Assembly: GCF_020520425.1 (NCBI RefSeq)
Contig: NC_079488.1
Location: 10,765,747-10,829,746, forward strand
Source of the DNA: Spinacia oleracea
Lineage: Eukaryota > Streptophyta > Magnoliopsida > Caryophyllales > Amaranthaceae
Length of the DNA stretch: 64,000 bases
Reading direction: 5' to 3'
The stretch's first letter is position 1. Every line of letters starts with the position of its first letter. The notes under the pieces are model-generated. The model searched no databases. It had not been told where the DNA came from and worked only from the letters and a program-made list of their open reading frames with translations. Of this stretch, positions 23,746-53,418 are shown in pieces. The position numbers were made by a program, and so were the translations under genes.

Positions 23746-24653
23746 ATGGATTCTCTTAAAATTATCTTATCTTTTACTCTCCTTGTATCTCTCTCATCAG
23801 CGACGAGTGTGGTTGACTTTTGTGTGGCGGATTTCAGATTCCCAGTTACTCCAGCGGGGTACTCTTGTAAAAATCCTGCTAACCTTACAGTGGATGACTT
23901 TGTTTTCTCTTCTTTGAGTGTTCCAGGTAAGACGTCAATTATTTTCACTACAAGAAAAACGTGTTTTAGCTACTGCTTTTTATGACGACCAAAAAATTCA
24001 GTCGCAATTTTTTTTCCTGGCTGAAGGAGACCAGTATTCGCAAAATTTGCGGCTACTTTACAATAGTCGCTACGTAGTCGCAATTTTGCGAATTCCATGT
24101 ACTTTTGCGACTAAGTTGTTGTCGCAAAGCTCAAAAGTTATTTTATTTTATTTTCAAAGCTTCTGCGACATTTTTTAACTTATGTTCTTTGGATGTTCCA
24201 GGTAACATGTCAAATATCTTCAATCTCGGTGTGGTCCCAGCTTTCGACGTGACATTCCCTGCCTTGAACGGTCTAGGCCTTTCCATGGTACGATTAGACC
24301 TTGGTGTGGGTGGAGTTGTTCCAATCCACTCGCACAGGGCGTCTGAACTTATCCTTGTAATCGAGGGGACGATAATTGCTGGATTTATTGGATCCGACAA
24401 CACCCCTTACTACAAAACATTGAATAAGGGGGATATTATGATCTTCCCCGCCTCGTTACTTCACTTCCAAGTTAACAATGGTAATTCTCCTGCTCTTGCA
24501 TTTGTTAGCTTAAACAGCGCGAGCCCCGGCTTTCAAACAACAACCTTTGCCCTAGCTTCAAATGACCTTCCTACTGATGTAATTCAGAAGATCACTTTGT
24601 TGGATACAACGCAGGTGAGGAAGTTAAAGACTGTGTTTGGAGGCACAAATTAA
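23746..24653 (+). CDS. GLP: Germin-like protein with a CACTA-derived intron
   Basis: The product would be a secreted germin-like protein of the ABP19/20 type: an apoplastic cupin, usually an oligomeric Mn-binding glycoprotein; its reaction cannot be read from sequence. Exon 1 is 23746-23926, a perfect CAG/GTAAG donor follows, and exon 2 is 24202-24653 after TTCCAG. The join leaves 633 nt, 210 codons plus stop, the same length as the intact gene at 38027 and aligned to it without gaps. Seen in the product: signal peptide of about 19 residues, two conserved Cys (DFC and YSC), glycosylation sites NLT and NMS, germin box 1 with ligands in IHSHRASE, box 2 PASLLHFQVN with His. Without splicing, the frame hits stops in the insert. 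Whether splicing happens is inferred. Otherwise it is a transposon-disrupted pseudogene. Confidence 0.75.
23946..24180 (+). mobile_element. CACTA transposon terminus forming most of the intron
   Basis: CACTACAAGAAAAA at 23946 is the hallmark terminus of plant CACTA (CMC) elements. Behind it come subterminal repeats on both strands (AGTCGCAA, TTGCGACTAAG, TAGTCGCAATTTTGCGA, CTGCGACA). No matching opposite terminus (TTCTTGTAGTG) is present, so only one end remains. The piece is flanked by a duplicated exon segment of about 37-42 bp (ending near 23945 and 24222), far longer than the 3-bp target duplication of CACTA. Confidence 0.8.
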
Positions 24654-25930: not shown

Positions 25931-26275
25931 GCCAGGAATCCAAACTAATTGTCACCTAATCAACTAGCATAATTTAGTATACATACTATGTGATGCGTGC
26001 CTTCCCTAGCTGCTCTCGAACCGAACAAAAACAAGTACAAAGCTCCAAATGTCGTCCCTCTGTATAAAGTCCACAACACGTTCGGATCCGCCTTAGGATC
26101 AACCAACTAGGATATTCTCTAAGGTTTTATGCACTCAGGAACTCACAGAATATGATAGGCAAATATTAAACTCTCTTGAATTTAATGTGTTATATGTATT
26201 ATAAATTGTGATCATGAACCACATATTTATAGGGTGGAAAAAGAGAAGTTTAATCCTACTAGGAATCGAATAACT
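25931..26275 (-). repeat. Partial copia LTR abutting the GLP pseudogene
   Basis: The reverse complement contains a TATA-like CCCTATAAATATGTGG, then AAGGCGGATCCGAACGTG, GAGGGACGACATTTGGAG and CAGCTAGGGAAGGCACGC. These match in order the latter half of the LTRs of the large copia element at 45698 (AAGGCGGATCCGGACGTA and onward). The fragment starts directly at the truncated edge of the GLP copy, so its arrival or a later deletion removed that gene's promoter and start. It points away from the GLP remnant. Confidence 0.75.
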
Positions 26276-26280
26276 AATCC

Positions 26281-26820
26281 GCGATGAGTGCGGTTGATAT
26301 TTGTGTGGCGGATTTCGGATTTAAAGATTTTGCGACATTGATTAATTTCTCTTCTTTGGATGCTTAACACGTCAAATATCTTCAATCTCGGTGTGGTCCT
26401 TGCTTTCGACGTGACATTTCCTGCCTTGAATGGTCTAGGCCTTTCCATGGTACGATTAGACCTTGGTGTGGGTGGAGTTGTTCCAATCCACTCACACAGG
26501 GCATCTGAACTCATCCTTGTAATCGTAGGGACGATAATTGCTGGATTTATTGGATCTGATAATACCCCTTATTACAAAACATTGAATAAGGGGGATATTA
26601 TGATCTTTCCCGCCTCATTACTTCACTTCCAAGTTAATACCGGTAATTCTCCGATCCTGCTACTGCATTTGTTAGCTTGAACAGCGCGAGCCCCGGTTTT
26701 CAAACCACAACCTTTGCTCTAGCTGCAAATGACCTTCCTACTGATGTAATTCAGAAGATCACTTTGTTGGATGCAACGCAGGTGAGGAAGTTGAAGACCG
26801 TGTTTGGCGGCACAAATTAA
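26281..26820 (+). pseudogene. GLP: Second GLP copy, broken
   Basis: This is a close relative of the GLP at 23746. It keeps a scrap of exon 1 (SAVDICVADFGF), then 14 bp of the CACTA insert (GATTTTGCGACATT), then most of exon 2 with both cupin boxes (IHSHRASE; PASLLHFQVN) and the normal stop. Missing or broken: promoter, start and signal peptide, the rest of exon 1, and the acceptor TTCCAG (now GATGCTTAACACG). A net 5-bp insertion near 26650 shifts the frame. Because the CACTA scrap is present, the transposon insertion preceded the duplication that made this copy. Confidence 0.9.
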
Positions 26821-26922
26821 TTAATACTCCGATAACAAAATGATCCAATTATATACTTACGTAGTAATCTATATGTGTTTATGTAAATGTAAAATGTAAT
26901 CCTAATATGTATGATTTGTATA

Positions 26923-28167
26923 TCCTAACACTTATAAAGCTTCACACTTTAATTATTATTCACACATTAGTGAATTACCAGTATTGCCCCCAATTTCCTT
27001 CATATATATTTTTTTGTCTTTTCCTTAAGAATAGTGTACTTACATTTATAACCTTTGGCTTAATGTTGACACATTTTTCTCTTTCTTTGGGATGACTAGA
27101 TGAGATCTTCACCTCCGCAACCCCTTTCATTTTCGAACCAACCTCTAGTCTATTGCATTTCACAAATTTTAATTTTCTTTTTAAAAAAAATTCTAGGGGT
27201 AACAACATAAACTGTGTTTATTATATTTGACTTTTCTAAAATGTTTTAAGACTGTAAGAAAACATGATTATAGAGTGTGGTAACAATTTGCAGGCCTGAT
27301 TCTTTGTTTGGCTCAGGTCTCAGGATATGTTTATGGCATGGACTTGTTATCAAATTTCAGAAAACATGGGCATTATTTTTCTCGTGCTTATGCTCCGTAA
27401 TTACAATGATATTTTCATAAAATGATTTAGGAGTTTTTTTTTTTATATTCAATGATGGTTAATGTTTGGGACATAGAAATAAATGATAACTGATGTGGAA
27501 TAAAATATAGTGTGTATACAATATCAAGGTAATGTGAACACTGGTCAAAATAATTTTCCATTGATTGTTAAAACTTTGTTAACAATTAGGTTTCTTGACC
27601 AAAATATTTTGGCAGAAGGTAGCATTAGCACAATATGTGGAGGGCAGCAAGATTCAAGGAGGATTTTGAGATTGCTGATGCCCATGAAGAAAATAATTCC
27701 CATGCTAAAGCAAGACCATGGATTTCTTCTCAAAGGCATACTCATACAAACAATGGTGTTTTACCTCCATCTTCTCAGAGCTATAGTATTTCCACTTCCT
27801 TTTAAGAAATGGTAGACGCTTAAATTTCAGTATACCACACTCAAGGACGCGACCTTATTACTATAATCACATGCTTTTGCGATTTATTGTTAGTTTTCAT
27901 TTGACCAGTTGTAAAATTTATGGCCTTTCTCATTGAATAGTTTGATTAACACAATGTACTCATAAATTTTTTTCTTAGAAACACGTTGCTAATGTTTATT
28001 GTAAACATATTATGATTTTGTATTATCAATTATATGCAAATCGAACTTTTTTTTAAAAAATAATTTACCATAATTTTGTAAATATCGATCTTTTATGCAA
28101 TATTTCTACAAAATAATTTTGTATACCTTGGGGGATCGTGCGCGCTAGCGCACGGTCCAACAACTAG
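26923..28167 (+). mobile_element. Non-autonomous Helitron, 1245 bp, with empty site visible
   Basis: The element starts TC (TCCTAACACTTATAAAGC) and ends CTAG. A hairpin at 28133-28158 (stem GGATCGTGCGC, loop GCTA, one G/T pair) lies 5 nt before CTAG. It sits exactly between A and T. The paralogous flank of the first GLP (near 24760) reads GTATA/TTAGTG with no insert and no target duplication, as Helitrons leave. Rep/helicase sequence is absent. Around 27600-27806 an acceptor-like TTTTGGCAG is followed by codons such as RFKEDFEIADAHEEN, broken by a frameshift, which may be a captured host exon that I do not recognise. Confidence 0.92.
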
Positions 28168-38026: not shown

Positions 38027-38659
38027 ATGGATGCTCAAAAAATTATCTTCCTCTTTATTTTCCTTGTTCCACTCTCGTCTGCTACTAGCATCGTTGATTT
38101 TTGTGTGGCGGATTTTAATTATCCAGGTGGACCAGCAGGATATGCTTGCAGAAATCCTGCAAATCTGACAGCAGATGACTTTGTTTACTCTGGTTTAGGC
38201 GTTGCAGGTAACACGTCAAATATATTCAATGCTAGTGCATTTCTAGCAGTCGATATTACTTTCCCTGCCTTGAACGGTCTAGGCCTATCCATGGCACGGT
38301 TAGACTTCGGTGTAGGTGGAGTTATTCCAATTCACGCACACAGGGTATCAGAAGTTATCCTCGTTATCGAGGGTACAATAATTGCTGGATTTATTGGTTC
38401 AGATAACACCCCTTACTACAAGACATTGAATAAGGGAGATATTATGATCTTCCCTCAATCGTTACTTCACTTCCAAGTTAACGTTGGCGATTCGCCGGCT
38501 CTTGCCTTTGTTAGCTTGAATAGTGCTAGTCCTGGTTTCCAAACGACGAGTTTTGCTCTAGGTGCAAATGATCTTCCTACTGATATAATTCAAAAGATCA
38601 CTTTGTTGGATGCTGCACAGATCAGACAGTTGAAGACAGTCTTTGGCGGCACTAATTAA
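38027..38659 (+). CDS. GLP: Germin-like protein, intact and intronless (210 aa)
   Basis: A germin-like cupin of the ABP19/20 type, expected to be secreted to the cell wall, form oligomers and bind manganese. Members have been linked to superoxide dismutase activity, defence or auxin binding, which sequence alone cannot decide. Seen: hydrophobic signal peptide (residues 1-19, LVPLSSA end), conserved Cys26 and Cys41, glycosylation sites NLT (46) and NTS (62), germin box 1 with His103, His105 and Glu109 (IHAHRVSE), box 2 with His148 (PQSLLHFQVN) and the family tail LKTVFGGTN. Box 2 has Ser145 where germins usually have Gly (PxG), and both sister copies share Ser. Length is standard. ATG at 38027 is the first start and leads straight into the signal peptide. 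Confidence 0.95.
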   Translation: MDAQKIIFLFIFLVPLSSATSIVDFCVADFNYPGGPAGYACRNPANLTADDFVYSGLGVAGNTSNIFNASAFLAVDITFPALNGLGLSMARLDFGVGGVIPIHAHRVSEVILVIEGTIIAGFIGSDNTPYYKTLNKGDIMIFPQSLLHFQVNVGDSPALAFVSLNSASPGFQTTSFALGANDLPTDIIQKITLLDAAQIRQLKTVFGGTN

Positions 38660-47035: not shown

Positions 47036-49452
47036 TTGCGATTCTTGTTGATAAATCTTAAATTTTTGATTGACCTACTGTATATGTTTAACAAGATTTG
47101 AATGCCTAGCCTTGTTAATTATGCAATCTAATTTGTAATTATGATTAATTTGTTAAAAATTAGAATAATTTAGAATTAATTTGATTTTCATAATTAATTA
47201 TAATTTAATTAGATGTAAATTTATGATAAATTTTAAATTTTTATGACCTAGGCTTGAATCCATGATAATCGGAAATCAATTGAATAATAAATTTTCGATT
47301 TTTCGCCCTAAAATTATGAAATTAATATTATTTATTAATTTGTCATTAATTTTAAATATAAATTTTTTAAATTTTATGCGATTCGTTCATATAACTTGCA
47401 CGCACAAAGCAATGGACGCTACATGTTACCCTTAAGGGGTGTTGTATAGTGCGGGCATGCGACGACGAGCAAGGGAGCTCGTCGCCCGTGCGGCACGAAT
47501 GCAATGAGCAAGGGCATGGTGCACGAGCACAAGGCAACAGCCCTGCCTTGTGTCGTGGGCTACGAGCACTGGACGAATGGGCATGGGGGAAGGCAAGGCA
47601 CGACAGTCGCGTGTGGGCAGCAAGCGAGCTACGCCACAACGCGCACTGCCTCGCGCAAGCGCGCGCAAGCTCGCGTGCCACAAGTGCTGCGCCCAGCGAG
47701 CGATGGCTCGCGCACAGCGAGCGTTGGCGAGCGCGCGCAGCGAGCGCTGGCGAGCGTGCACAGCGAGCGATGGCTCGCGTGCATCGAGCGCTGGAGCGCG
47801 CGCAGCGAGCGCTGGCAAGCGCGCACAGCGAGCGATGGCTCGCGTGCATCGAGCGCTGGCGTGCGCGCAGCGAGCACCAACTCGTGCGATGGCTTGCGAA
47901 GGGTAGAAGCAGCAGCTATGCGACGAGCGCATGGGCTGCGCGCACATGGCCAGCGATGGCTGTGTGCGTGTGGCCCATGGGCGTGAGATGCGTAGGGTGT
48001 TTGCGTTGCGATTAGATCGTTTTGAATGTTTAATTTGAAATTTTCAGTTTACGTAATTTTAATTAATTTTAAAATTAATAATTTAAATTATTTTCTTGGA
48101 TTTTAATTTTGAATATTGTAATTATAATAAATTTTATTTATTCTAATTATTTTACTAAAATTGAAATCATGAATTAATTTAAATACGACTGAAATTAAAT
48201 TAAACTTTTTGGATTCAATTATAAATTTATATGAGCTTTAAGTTTTAATTAAATTTGTATGTTTCCGGTTAGACTAGAAATACATTTTTATGTTTAAAAT
48301 TAGTAAAGCATATGAATTTATTGGTTTGAGTGGGAGCCCTTTTTAGTCATAAACTCTTGATTAGGTCTACAAATCCTTAAGGTTAAAACAACTTGATTAG
48401 AATTAATAAGGACTGAATAATTGGTAGATTATTGGTGCCCTTGATTAATTGCTGCAAATGTTTACGTGATGCATAATGTGTTTTACTAACCAGCTATGTG
48501 GGCCATTCATGATAATGAATGGGTGAATGGTATATATTGTATATGTACTGTTTTGCAGGTTATGAAGTGACTAGTATGGCCCAAATAGGATAGAAAATAT
48601 GGTCTGCATACCATTAATTTGAATGTAATTGGTCTAAAGTACCAAAGTTGTTTTTCAATTCAAATATGGTCTGCGTACCATCAAATAGTTGTAATTAGTT
48701 TTAATTATAGCTTATCCTATTTGAAGAAAATGGTGCCTCCCACGGAGATTTTCAAGACGGACTTTGAAGTCAAAGCTTCAAGATGAAGTCGGGCCATACT
48801 AGATCACATTTATCTTATGCATGTTTTAAGTTATTTATTGCTTTTAAATATGTCTTAAAATGCATGAGATCAAAAGCTTGATTATGTTGCATGATTAAGG
48901 ATTTTAGTTCACTTAAAATCTAACCAACATAGTAAGAGCCTTAAGTTCCAAACTTAAAAATTGAGTTAAAAGGTGCCATGCCAAAATATACACTTGCTTG
49001 GATATCCTTTACATCAATCTAGTAATAGTTTTCGCTCAGCGAGGTGTTACTTATTGGTCCTAAAGGGGCAAGGTACACAAATAATTGTGAGTACATGTTA
49101 GTTTTGGTGAAACTCAACGATATAAGTAAGGAGTCCTTTTATGTCGTGGCAAAATCGATAGGTTTACCTAATAAGTTCTTAGACGTACCTATCAACCAAG
49201 AATAGTTTCTAGACTATTAGCAAAAGGCTTTTGCTTACCTAAGATGTTTTAGGATTAAGTCGACAAACTGTGCTTAGTTCTTCAATGATTTTAGGATCTT
49301 GGAATCATTTTATTCACACCTGCCGGAACACATAACTTGAATAAAATGCTTAATAAACATTGAATTATGCATGTATGCTCGAATTTAAGTTTATTAAGAG
49401 AAACTGTGAATGGTTATTTATTTGTTTATTCTTTTCAATTGTAGTTTTTAAT
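47036..49452 (+). other. Untranslated leader of the copia element
   Basis: Mostly AT-rich, except for a striking G/C-rich island at about 47440-48005. No primer binding site of the usual initiator-Met type was found at its start. Long overlapping frames in the island are by-products of its composition. It ends before the ATG at 49453. Confidence 0.7.
47694..47888 (+). repeat. G/C-rich minisatellite, 21-23 bp units
   Basis: About nine units of CAGCGAGCGATGGCTCGCGCA-like sequence in lengths 21, 23, 23, 21, 21, 23, 21, 21 and 21 bp, in otherwise AT-rich DNA. Each unit is partly self-complementary (GCGAGCGATGGCTCGC), so the leader RNA could form serial hairpins. Confidence 0.85.
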
Positions 49453-52400
49453 ATGGCAAACAACAATTCATTCAACATTCGATCAATTCTCGAAAAGGAG
49501 AAGTTGAACGGGAAGAACTTCCTTGACTGGCAAAGGAACTTGCAAATAGTTCTTATGCAGGAAGAAAAGGAATATGTCCTAGAAGAGGCGATGCCCGAAG
49601 CCGCAGGCGACGGGGTCACTCAGGCAGCCCTCAATCGTTGGATTGATGCCAACAAGGATGTGAAATGTCTAATGCTCGCCACCATGAGTGCGGATCTGCA
49701 GAAAACGTTCATCAACTCAGATGCTTTCACAATCATCAGTGAGTTGAAGAACATGTTCCAAGATCTGGCTCGAGTCGAAAGATTCGAGACTCATAGGAAA
49801 ATTCTTGAGACCAAGCTTAAGAAAGGCGAGCCCGTAAGTCCACATGTTCTCAAAATGATTGGACTCATTGAGAATATGAGTCGGCTGGATCAGCAATTTT
49901 CTCAGGAAATGGCTATAGACACCATCCTCCATTCTCTTCATAGCGGGTATGATCAGTTCAAACTGAACTACAGTATGAATAGTCTGGACAAAACGCTCAC
50001 TGAGCTTCACGGTATGCTGAAGACCGCTGAAAAGACGCTCAAAAGTGATAAGCAGGATGTGCTTATGGTGCGTGGGGGCAAGTTCATGAAATCTGGAAAG
50101 AAGAGGAATGCTAAGAAAGGTGGCAACAAGGCCAGCCCAACTAAGCAAACTGGCGCCAAATCTGTAAAGAGGAAGGTCAGTCAACCCACTTCTGAATCCG
50201 AATGCTTCTACTGCAAGAAGAAGGGGCATTGGAAGAGAGATTGCTTGAAGCTAAAGGAAGATCAGAAGAATGGAATAGTCGTTCCATCTTCAGGTATTTT
50301 CGTTATAGACTGTATACTTGCTAATTCAACTTCTTGGGTATTAGATACAGGTTGTGCCTCACACTTATGTTCCAATCCACAGGGACTAAGAAGAAGTAGA
50401 AAGTTAAGCAAGGGTGAAGTCGACCTACGAGTGGGAAATGGAGCACGGATTGCTGCATTAGCTGTAGGAACTTACTATTTGTCGTTGCCCTCCGGGCTAG
50501 TTTTGGAACTGGAAGAATGTTTCCATGTTCCAAGTCTTACTAAAAACATCATTTCAGTTTCTTGCTTAGATGCTAAGGGATTTTCTTTTTTAATAAAAGA
50601 CAATAGTTGTTCGTTTTATTTTAAAGAGATGTTTTATGGATCTGCTAGATTAGTCAATGGACTTTATTTATTAGATCACGACAAACAAGTATATAACATA
50701 AATACCAAAAAGGCCAAAAAGGATGATTCAGATCTCACCTATCTGTCGCATTGTCGATTAGGTCATATAAACTTGAAACGCTTAGAAAGACTTCAAAAGG
50801 AAGGAATTCTAGAACCATTTGACTTAGAGGATTATGGTAAATGCGAATCATGTTTACTTGGCAAAATGACAAAGCAACCTTTCTCTAAAGTTGGAGAAAG
50901 AGCAAATGAACTATTGGGTTTAATCCATACAGATGTATGTGGACCAATGAGTACAAATGCTAGAGGTGGTTTCAGCTACTTTATCACTTTCACTGATGAC
51001 TTCAGTAGATATGGTTATGTCTACCTAATGAAGCATAAGTCTGAATCCTTTGACAAATTCAAGGAATTTCAGAGTGAAGTAGAGAATCAATTAGGCAAGA
51101 AGATTAAGGCACTGCGGTCTGATAGAGGCGGTGAATATCTGAGCTATGAATTTGATGACCATCTGAAAGAATGTGGAATTCTATCAGAATTGACTCCTCC
51201 AGGAACACCACAATGGAACGGTGTGTCAGAACGGAGGAACAGAACCTTGCTAGACATGGTCAGGTCAATGATGGGTCAGGCCAAACTTCCATTAGAATTT
51301 TGGGGACATGCACTAAATACAGCTACACTCACTATAAATAGAGCTCCGTCTAAAGCTGTCGAAAAGACTCCATACAAATTATGGTTTGGAAAGCCTCCAA
51401 ATGTGTCTTTTCTTAAGATTTGGGGATGTGAAGTATACGTCAAACGATTAATTTCAGACAAACTTCATCCAAAATCTGACAAATGTATCCTTGTGGGCTA
51501 TCCAAAGGAAACAAAGGGGTATTACTTCTACAATACATCTGAGAACAAGGTGTTTGTTGCTCGAGATGGTGTCTTTTTGGAGAAAGATCACATTTCCAAA
51601 ATGACAAGTGGGAGAAAAGTAGACCTCGAAGAAATTCGAGTCGAACAACAAACTCTAGAGAATTCTCAAGATGACATTCAGGATGAAACTCAGAGATCTT
51701 TAGAAGAATCTGGTGAGAATCATGGTCAAACTAGAAATGTTACCCCGCGTAGATCGCAAAGATATAGATCTCAACCAGAAAGGTACTTAGGTATTTTGAC
51801 GAACGAGAGCTATGACGTTCTATTACTTGAAAGTGATGAACCTGCGACTTACAAACAAGCTATGACGAGCCCTAGCTCCAAGCAATGGCAAGAAGCCATG
51901 CAATCTGAATTAGACTCCATGTCTGAAAACCAAGTATGGGATTTGGTCGATTTGCCAGATGCCTACCAAGCCATTGGAAGCAAATGGGTTTTCAAACTGA
52001 AAAAGGACAAGGATGGGAAACTTGAAGTTTTCAAAGCTAGATTGGTTGCAAAAGGTTACAGGCAAGTCCACGGTGTGGATTACGATGAAACCTTTTCACC
52101 AGTTGCAATGCTAAAGTCTATTCGGATAATGTTAGCAATCGCTGCATATTACGATTACGAAATATGGCAGATTGATGTCAAAACTGCTTTCTTAAACGGC
52201 GTTTTAACAGAAACTGTGTTTATGACACAGCCTGAAGGTTTTGAGGATCCAAAGAATGCTAGAAAGGTATGTAAGCTAAAGAAGTCAATCTACGGATTGA
52301 AGCAGGCATCCAGGAGCTGGAATATATGTTTTGATGAAGCAGTCAGTGACTTTGGTTTCATCAAGAACGCAGACGAATCTTGTGTATACAAGAAGGTCAG

Positions 52401-53418
52401 TGGGAGAAAAATTGCTTTCCTAGTATTATATGTCGACGACATATTACTTATCGGAAATGACATTCCTATGTTGAACTTTGTCAAGATTTGTCTTGGGAAA
52501 TGTTTTTCGATGAAAGATCTAGGAGAAGCACAGTACATATTGGGCATCAAGATTTACAGAGATAGATCTAAAAGGATGATTGGACTTAGTCAAAGCACTT
52601 ATATCAATAAGGTGCTTGATAGGTTCAAGATGGCGGACTCCAAGCGAGGCTACCTACCCATGTCTCATGGAATGACTCTAAGCAAGACTCAGTGCCCAAA
52701 AACACTTGATGAGCGTAGACGAATGAATGGGATTCCATATGCATCATTGATTGGTTCAATAATGTATGCTATGATATGTACACGCCCGGATGTTGCGTAC
52801 GCACTCAGTGCTACGAGCAGATACCAGTCAGACCCAGGAGAGGCGCATTGGACTGCTGCCAAGAATATTCTGAAGTACCTGAAAAGGCACGAAGATGACT
52901 TCCTGGTCTATGGTGGAGATGATGAATTAATTGTTAAAGGCTATACGGACGCAAGTTTCCAAACCGACAAAGATGATTTCAGATCACAGTCTGGGTTTGT
53001 CTTCTGCCTCAACGGAGGAGCAGTAAGCTGGAAAAGTGCTAAGCAAAGCACCATTGCGGATTCTACAACTGAAGCGGAGTACATTACTGCACATGAAGCA
53101 GCAAAGGAAGCTATATGGCTAAGGAAGTTCATAGGTGAACTTGGTGTAGTCCCCTCCATTAAAGGACCAATTGCCCTGTATTGTGATAATAACGGAGCTA
53201 TTGCACAGGCAAAGGAGCCTAGACACCACCAGAGAGTCAAGCATGTACTTCGTAGATTTCACCTTCTACGAGAGTTCGTTGAAAGAAAAGAAGTCGAGAT
53301 AAGCAAAATTGGAACTGATGACAACATATCAGATCCATTGACTAAACCTCTGCCGCAGGCGAAGCACAACTCGCACACTGCAGCTATGGGAATCAAGCAT
53401 ATTGGAGAATGGCTTTGA
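49453..53418 (+). CDS. Copia Gag-Pol polyprotein, intact (1321 aa)
   Basis: The polyprotein makes the retrotransposon particle and copies and inserts the element. Domains in order: Gag; zinc knuckle CFYCKKKGHWKRDC at residue 251; protease LDTGCASHL with Asp298; integrase with Asp494 (HTDVCGP), Asp557 (SDRGGEY) and Glu593 (VSERRN); reverse transcriptase with YVDD at 993-996; RNase H with Asp1166 (TDAS), TEAEY near 1207 and Asp1245 (YCDN). Integrase before RT defines Ty1/copia. No stop or frameshift is seen. I start at the second ATG (MANNNSFNIRS), because Gag proteins of related elements begin this way; an in-frame ATG at 49360 would add 31 hydrophobic residues. The protein looks functional, but the 5' end of the element is damaged. 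Confidence 0.95.
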   Translation: MANNNSFNIRSILEKEKLNGKNFLDWQRNLQIVLMQEEKEYVLEEAMPEAAGDGVTQAALNRWIDANKDVKCLMLATMSADLQKTFINSDAFTIISELKNMFQDLARVERFETHRKILETKLKKGEPVSPHVLKMIGLIENMSRLDQQFSQEMAIDTILHSLHSGYDQFKLNYSMNSLDKTLTELHGMLKTAEKTLKSDKQDVLMVRGGKFMKSGKKRNAKKGGNKASPTKQTGAKSVKRKVSQPTSESECFYCKKKGHWKRDCLKLKEDQKNGIVVPSSGIFVIDCILANSTSWVLDTGCASHLCSNPQGLRRSRKLSKGEVDLRVGNGARIAALAVGTYYLSLPSGLVLELEECFHVPSLTKNIISVSCLDAKGFSFLIKDNSCSFYFKEMFYGSARLVNGLYLLDHDKQVYNINTKKAKKDDSDLTYLSHCRLGHINLKRLERLQKEGILEPFDLEDYGKCESCLLGKMTKQPFSKVGERANELLGLIHTDVCGPMSTNARGGFSYFITFTDDFSRYGYVYLMKHKSESFDKFKEFQSEVENQLGKKIKALRSDRGGEYLSYEFDDHLKECGILSELTPPGTPQWNGVSERRNRTLLDMVRSMMGQAKLPLEFWGHALNTATLTINRAPSKAVEKTPYKLWFGKPPNVSFLKIWGCEVYVKRLISDKLHPKSDKCILVGYPKETKGYYFYNTSENKVFVARDGVFLEKDHISKMTSGRKVDLEEIRVEQQTLENSQDDIQDETQRSLEESGENHGQTRNVTPRRSQRYRSQPERYLGILTNESYDVLLLESDEPATYKQAMTSPSSKQWQEAMQSELDSMSENQVWDLVDLPDAYQAIGSKWVFKLKKDKDGKLEVFKARLVAKGYRQVHGVDYDETFSPVAMLKSIRIMLAIAAYYDYEIWQIDVKTAFLNGVLTETVFMTQPEGFEDPKNARKVCKLKKSIYGLKQASRSWNICFDEAVSDFGFIKNADESCVYKKVSGRKIAFLVLYVDDILLIGNDIPMLNFVKICLGKCFSMKDLGEAQYILGIKIYRDRSKRMIGLSQSTYINKVLDRFKMADSKRGYLPMSHGMTLSKTQCPKTLDERRRMNGIPYASLIGSIMYAMICTRPDVAYALSATSRYQSDPGEAHWTAAKNILKYLKRHEDDFLVYGGDDELIVKGYTDASFQTDKDDFRSQSGFVFCLNGGAVSWKSAKQSTIADSTTEAEYITAHEAAKEAIWLRKFIGELGVVPSIKGPIALYCDNNGAIAQAKEPRHHQRVKHVLRRFHLLREFVERKEVEISKIGTDDNISDPLTKPLPQAKHNSHTAAMGIKHIGEWL

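Follow-up and report, generated by a model that had tools for sequence, protein, structure and literature searches.

A germin-like protein gene of Spinacia oleracea (gene A) is interrupted by 275 nt that are very probably a spliceosomal intron, gained in the common ancestor of gene A and its relative A′ through insertion of a CACTA transposon combined with the copying of a stretch of exon. Gene A occupies positions 23746-24653 of the window, by which we mean the whole stretch of 64,000 nucleotides analysed here (C2:10765747-10829746). The initial annotation had proposed a gain by duplication of a proto-splice site coupled to transposon DNA. This is still the best reading of the locus, with the qualification that the event was more than a plain tandem duplication. 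The gain is supported by the protein that is restored upon removal of the insert, by the same insert in A′, by a tail of it in pseudogene B, by the CACTA family to which it belongs and by the constraint on the coding sequence. Moreover, as judged from the sequences that share it, the gain is not private to gene A and took place before A, A′ and B separated. The features are collected in Table 1.

Table 1. Coordinates of the features discussed (positions of the window unless a contig is given)
Feature	Position	Strand	Remarks
Gene A exon 1 (germin-like protein, ABP19a type)	23746..23926	+	181 nt; basis: joined ORF
Gene A intron, probably gained	23927..24201	+	275 nt, CAG/GTAAGA ... TTCCAG/GT
Gene A exon 2	24202..24653	+	452 nt including stop
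Exon-derived copy 1	23905..23947	+	gives the donor; 3′ half now intronic; direct repeat D1
Exon-derived copy 2	24180..24222	+	gives the acceptor, runs on as coding exon 2; direct repeat D1
5′ terminal ~230 nt of a non-autonomous CACTA (En/Spm) transposon	23946..24178	+	right edge approximate
GLP pseudogene B	26274..26923	+	551/612 aligned positions identical to A from 24153 on
Intronless paralog C	38027..38659	+	633 nt, one frame; outgroup for the gain
LTR-type element in A′ exon 2	C2 about 10624604-10635177		flanks: L009 from 2105, L010 up to 1678

Splice junction and product of gene A

Gene A had been annotated as a GLP gene split by 275 bp, with an intronless paralog at 38027 (paralog C), and the sequence is as described. 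It had also been stated that removal of 23927-24201 restores 633 nt in the length and frame of the paralog. Indeed, what is left forms a single open frame of 633 nt encoding 210 amino acids, of the same length as paralog C and alignable to it without gaps (504/633 nt identical). When the insert is retained, translation stops after 79 codons. In a protein search of 5,772,631,384 sequences (627 hits from 1605 candidates), the spliced product was found to be identical over 210/210 residues to the public spinach protein P0001, named auxin-binding protein ABP19a (NCBI, Spinacia oleracea) and also present in UniRef and nr. The public gene model thus uses the 23926/24202 junction proposed in the initial annotation.

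The product harbours a Cupin_1 domain (PF00190, E 5.5e-32) and matches barley oxalate oxidase (germin) 1fi2 (E 4e-27). Together with the name of P0001, these similarities identify it as a germin-like protein of the ABP19 type. It keeps H103, H105, E109 and H148, which we take to be the metal-site residues; all four are invariant in 11 aligned proteins.

The splice sites of the insert region were scored with a rough consensus matrix of plant frequencies. Position 23927 is the top-scoring donor among 44 GT, and 24201 is the joint top acceptor among 30 AG, where it ties with the equivalent AG of copy 1. As a pair, they rank first among the 86 GT-AG combinations that restore the frame. A branch-like TTAAC is found in the intron; its A precedes the end of the AG by 23 nt. 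Splice sites within the CACTA element were considered and rejected, since the top donor and acceptor, on this rough matrix, fall in the exon copies.

Elsewhere in the window, a 1352-aa open frame (49360-53418) resembles by eye a Ty1/copia gag-pol polyprotein. In a repetitive-looking segment (47367-48015), each strand has two open frames of 160-188 aa, all four overlapping; they probably reflect repeat structure and not genes.

The CACTA remnant and the duplicated exon stretch

The insert holds a CACTA end, as had been noticed, and a dispersed CACTA family stands behind it. The terminal repeat CACTACAAGAAAA begins at 23946, and CACTACAA occurs once in the window, both strands counted, at this same position. 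CACTACAAGAAAA is identical at 13/13 positions to the published terminal repeat of the CACTA element of radish RsMYB1 (PMC7210773). The remnant also contains subterminal GCGAC/GTCGC repeats, GTCGCAA/TTGCGAC being found four times in the insert, while 500 shuffles give 0.07 on average. The gene A copy has CACTA terminal and subterminal repeats but neither the second, inverted end nor a target duplication of 3 bp. There is no TTGTAGTG end in A, and no CACTA 3′ terminus within ~1.7 kb downstream of CACTA in A or A′; a complete CACTA insertion in A was rejected, as the 3′ end is lacking.

A search of the genome (894 Mb, 242 contigs) with 23946-24182 gave at least 30 matches, A and A′ included, and 25/30 begin at the CACTA base. 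Twenty of the 30 were taken as loci and, with A and A′ set aside, the 18 others were examined. The sequence CACTACAAG stands at the predicted start of 16/18; L017 has GACTAC instead and the match of L024 begins inside the element. Nine of the 18 loci are complete: 322 to 1527 nt away they have a TGTAGTG end, and the 3 bp after it repeat those before CACTA. The view covered ~1.5 kb past each match, which longer elements would escape. The shared starts and the nine loci with matching ends show a real CACTA family that makes target duplications of 3 bp. Five of the 18 loci (L017, L019, L025, L029, L030) match the insert up to its position 221-237 and the rest are shorter; the whole insert is covered only by A and A′ among the at least 30 genome matches. 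One complete family member, L020 (C6:127136165 on), is a miniature element of 322 bp with AAG target duplications, close in size to what the original insertion in gene A would have required.

The two exon copies flanking the insert, annotated as about 37-42 bp long, correspond to direct repeat D1, which in A measures 43 nt, is identical at 35/43 positions (81%) and is spaced by 275 nt. Chance origin of this repeat was ruled out by 60 dinucleotide shuffles of its right-hand stretch, the best of which reached 26/43. The copies of A′ agree at 42/44 positions. In A, the last two bases of copy 1 (CA) double as the first two of CACTA. The copies are not in tandem: about 232 nt of CACTA-derived sequence separates them, and both carry CAG/GTAA, one on each side of the remnant. 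The AGGT in use (23925-23928) lies 17-20 nt upstream of the CACTA insertion point, within the ~44-nt copy. T-rich sequence makes the left edge of copy 2 hard to place. A leftward extension of the duplication to a GAC common to the GCGAC repeat and the exon was considered but not adopted, because it needs a gap and runs through a T-rich stretch; this GAC is no more than suggestive of microhomology joining.

In A′, copy 1 ends in ATATCTT, CACTACAAG follows directly and copy 2 reads ATATCTTCAATC. This layout places the element where an ordinary insertion with the target CTT would go. The 3-bp target site of the transposon is separate from the much longer ~44-nt duplicated segment, a distinction that was absent from the initial annotation.

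The 5′ exon copy was also said to have begun to diverge, which is the case, and the change in A includes the donor. All 11 aligned proteins have N62, so that the base after GTAA before the event was C or T (GTAAC or GTAAT). Copy 1 of A′ retains GTAAC while that of A has GTAAG, and the donor score rises accordingly from 5.0 to 7.3 on the rough plant matrix. This shift of the A donor brings it nearer to the consensus, but as a single change it may be due to chance.

Relatives of gene A and constraint on the insert-bearing copies

A′ (C2:10623881) is identical to A at 972/1074 aligned positions, insert included. It carries the insert at the same base, between the same flanking copies, with 284 nt between the splice sites. 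Its exon pieces match the protein record P0003, which differs from P0001 at 11/210 residues and is listed on a contig as long as C2. Exon 2 of A′ is broken by an LTR-type element of ~10.6 kb (length from coordinates) with TG...CA ends and ATTAC duplications. Eight junctions were found that would yield P0003 across this element and 0/8 are GT-AG, hence ordinary splicing of this A′ allele cannot have produced the P0003 record; it may derive from an allele without the LTR-type element. As P0003 is listed in spite of the element, such protein records are no proof of splicing, and P0001 may rest on prediction.

Pseudogene B still has copy 2 and, at 26320-26345, 26 nt from the CACTA-derived tail of the intron. 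This tail is identical to that of A at 21/26 positions, with a score of 16 that was reached by 0/2000 shuffles (best 15). Missing from B are its 5′ end, the last part of exon 1, the acceptor CCAGG and most of the intron, and its frame is broken by a 5-nt frameshift. Neither A′ nor B figured in the initial annotation. Since A′ shares the insert and B shares its tail, the intron would have arisen once, before the three copies separated. P0001 and P0003 differ at seven of the residues compared with B, which sides with P0003 at five and with P0001 at two, and DNA sites group A′ with B (5), A with A′ (3) or A with B (0). These conflicting counts leave the branching order of A, A′ and B unsettled, while the insertion still predates all three.

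A genome search with paralog C gave 100 match rows, not all of them distinct genes. Of these, 73 begin no later than residue 45 and run beyond residue 75 in one frame without an internal stop, and a further 11/100 span likewise but with an internal stop. A looser count gives 85/100 rows spanning residues 50-75, one of them being A′ exon 2, and the stricter figure is used here. A second copy of paralog C (L002, C2:10701539-10702168) lies about 102 kb away, with 98% protein identity. The C copies are 98% alike (protein) and A and A′ 91% (DNA), which suggests that the cluster expanded in more than one step. In a tree of 35 proteins, hand-picked from 120 listed of the 627 hits and including a 285-aa Bienertia protein cut to its second part, A and A′ form their own clade (support 0.98). 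The next grouping, with one Silene protein, has a support of only 0.70 and gives no basis for dating. Relatives in other species were compared at the protein level only.

The insert-bearing copies have diverged under coding constraint. Between A and A′, 20 of 32 changes are synonymous and 12 nonsynonymous (P = 3e-4), with 7 + 4 (synonymous + nonsynonymous) in exon 1 and 13 + 8 in exon 2. Between A and B, the count is 20 synonymous of 27 changes (7 nonsynonymous, P = 7e-6), the P values being computed against a transition-weighted neutral synonymous fraction of 0.316. Pairwise omega among A, A′ and B is 0.10-0.19. On single branches the signal is modest, with 8/12 synonymous changes in A (P = 0.013) and, in a four-way count, 6/9 in A (P = 0.03) and 7/12 in A plus A′ (P = 0.05). 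The intron distance between A and A′ is 0.196 (JC), with 4 gap runs in 287 columns, and is near or slightly above the exon dS of 0.18 and 0.14. Set against the equal-length frames of A and C, this distance and these gaps indicate that the intron drifts and the frame does not. Taken with the early stop of the retained insert, the constraint on exon 2 implies that the insert is spliced out in the copies that bear it, as far as patterns of substitution can tell.

This bears on whether gene A is still a gene. The CACTA insertion could have killed it, the apparent splice sites having simply arisen with the duplication. This would fit a retained form that stops after 79 codons, the broken copy B and the modest single-branch selection signals. 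We nonetheless consider this unlikely, as the insertion is older than the A/A′/B split and yet pairwise omega is 0.10-0.19. Moreover, A retains its full frame, its donor has moved towards the consensus, its exact spliced protein stands in public records, and H103, H105, E109 and H148, invariant in 11 aligned proteins, are kept.

The order of events is another matter. A ~44-nt AGGT tandem duplication according to the Rogers model, a model both established and reproduced experimentally (PMC3443670, PMC4974935), might have come first, with CACTA landing later at the copy junction, and the AG/GT and the copies agree with it. This sequence of events is improbable, because the CACTA terminus would have to hit the copy boundary exactly and then lose its 3′ end, and in the better-preserved A′ the terminus is found exactly at the end of copy 1. 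In addition, an intron of ~44 nt would be below the workable length in plants. Another possibility is an older intron at residue 61, which C and most relatives would have lost and CACTA DNA would later have filled. Introns are indeed present in some germin-like subfamilies. In Brassica napus, the cupin genes of subfamily I mostly have two exons and all those of subfamily II and nearly all those of subfamily III are intronless, the ABP19 type not being matched to these subfamilies (PMC9377217). However, 73/100 match rows cross residues 45-75 in one frame without a stop, and the exon copies together with a CACTA terminus at its target base explain the whole insert, with no older intron left over, which makes such an ancestry most improbable.

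Proposed origin and place among known intron gains

For a gain by CACTA insertion and exon copying, we propose the following scenario. A non-autonomous CACTA element would have inserted after ...ATATCTT in an exon of an intronless germin-like gene, as suggested by the 5′ terminus lying at the same base in A and A′. The 3′ part of the element would then have been lost, and ~44 nt of exon from upstream of the insertion would have been joined to the remaining ~230 nt. To do so, the right-hand broken end could have been extended on an element-free copy and then end-joined to the trimmed element, or illegitimate recombination could have taken place between element-bearing and element-free copies. 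Both routes give the same product; we tentatively favour the repair route over the illegitimate crossover. Among DNA-transposon excisions in rice (superfamilies pooled, few CACTA), 8/94 were perfect and 58 had filler of 1-123 bp, and strand-annealing synthesis is named as a source of filler DNA (PMC4423477).

As a result, CAG/GTAA would stand on both sides of AT-rich transposon DNA with a branch-like site. The GT of copy 1 would be spliced to the AG of copy 2, restoring the frame without altering a codon. The gene would subsequently have duplicated to give A, A′ and the precursor of B; later, the donor GTAAC would have become GTAAG in A, and the acceptor and frame would have been lost in B, two changes that can be read in the sequences. 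It is conceivable, and we put this forward tentatively, that the aborted excision of a cut-and-paste transposon is an intron-making process in itself. Break repair from an element-free copy would copy the upstream proto-splice site beyond the remnant, so that neither a special element nor element-borne sites would be needed.

Transposon insertion, AGGT tandem duplication and break repair are treated as separate mechanisms of intron gain in a review (PMC3443670), and the predicted gene A intron shows parts of all three in combination. Its body is transposon sequence, but the splice sites come neither from the element nor from its normal 3-bp target duplication, so it is not a strict case of transposon insertion. 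An exonic AGGT segment occurs twice, flanking the intron, and the protein is unchanged on removal; however, the copies are not in tandem and the intron is not made of duplicated exon, so that it is not a strict case of AGGT duplication either. As in ATP2A1 (Hellsten et al. 2011, cited in PMC4974935) and potato RdRp (PMC4974935), the copies give GT and AG and leave the protein unchanged, while here, unlike in these two cases, ~232 nt of transposon DNA between them supplies the length, the AT-richness and the branch-like site.

With regard to break repair, foreign filler lies between short host direct repeats, the repair event itself being presumed, and double-strand-break-repair intron gains likewise have direct repeats around a foreign filler that turns intron. 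Here, in contrast to other break-repair gains, the filler can be recognised as the terminus of a transposon, still at the point where it inserted, and the break can therefore be attributed to the element.

In the maize A2 gene, an En/Spm (CACTA) element reportedly forms a novel intron (Menssen et al. 1990, cited in PMC4219821). In both genes a CACTA-type element gives an intron; in maize A2 the splice sites lie, judging by the title, in the element termini, while in gene A both come from the host exon and the 3′ end is lost. DNA-transposon introners are also transposon sequences that become introns and can co-opt splice sites at the insertion site (PMC9860276). Unlike these, the gene A intron apparently stems from one event inherited by gene duplication and not from a spreading intron family; this survey reports no introners in land plants. 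In the open-licence literature, subscription papers being largely outside this scope, we found no report of the gene A intron, nor of a CACTA end that occurs together with a duplicated proto-splice site, and the excerpts of PMC6517559 and PMC8891383 hold nothing on an intron at this position. Each ingredient is already known; it is the combination that looks new.

Few proven cases are known of a recent intron gain whose origin can still be read (PMC4974935), and the mechanism of intron gain is debated. Here both sources are visible, an identified transposon family and an exact stretch of exon. One genome holds three inherited stages, with A′ keeping the older donor GTAAC, A having GTAAG and B decayed, and together with the intronless paralog these allow a before/after test of the splicing of a newborn intron and of its improvement. 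The gene A case also yields a signature with which to search for further cases: if aborted excision does make introns, CACTA-rich plant genomes should hold more of them, each recognisable by one CACTA end adjoining a 20-100 nt copy of the adjacent exon.
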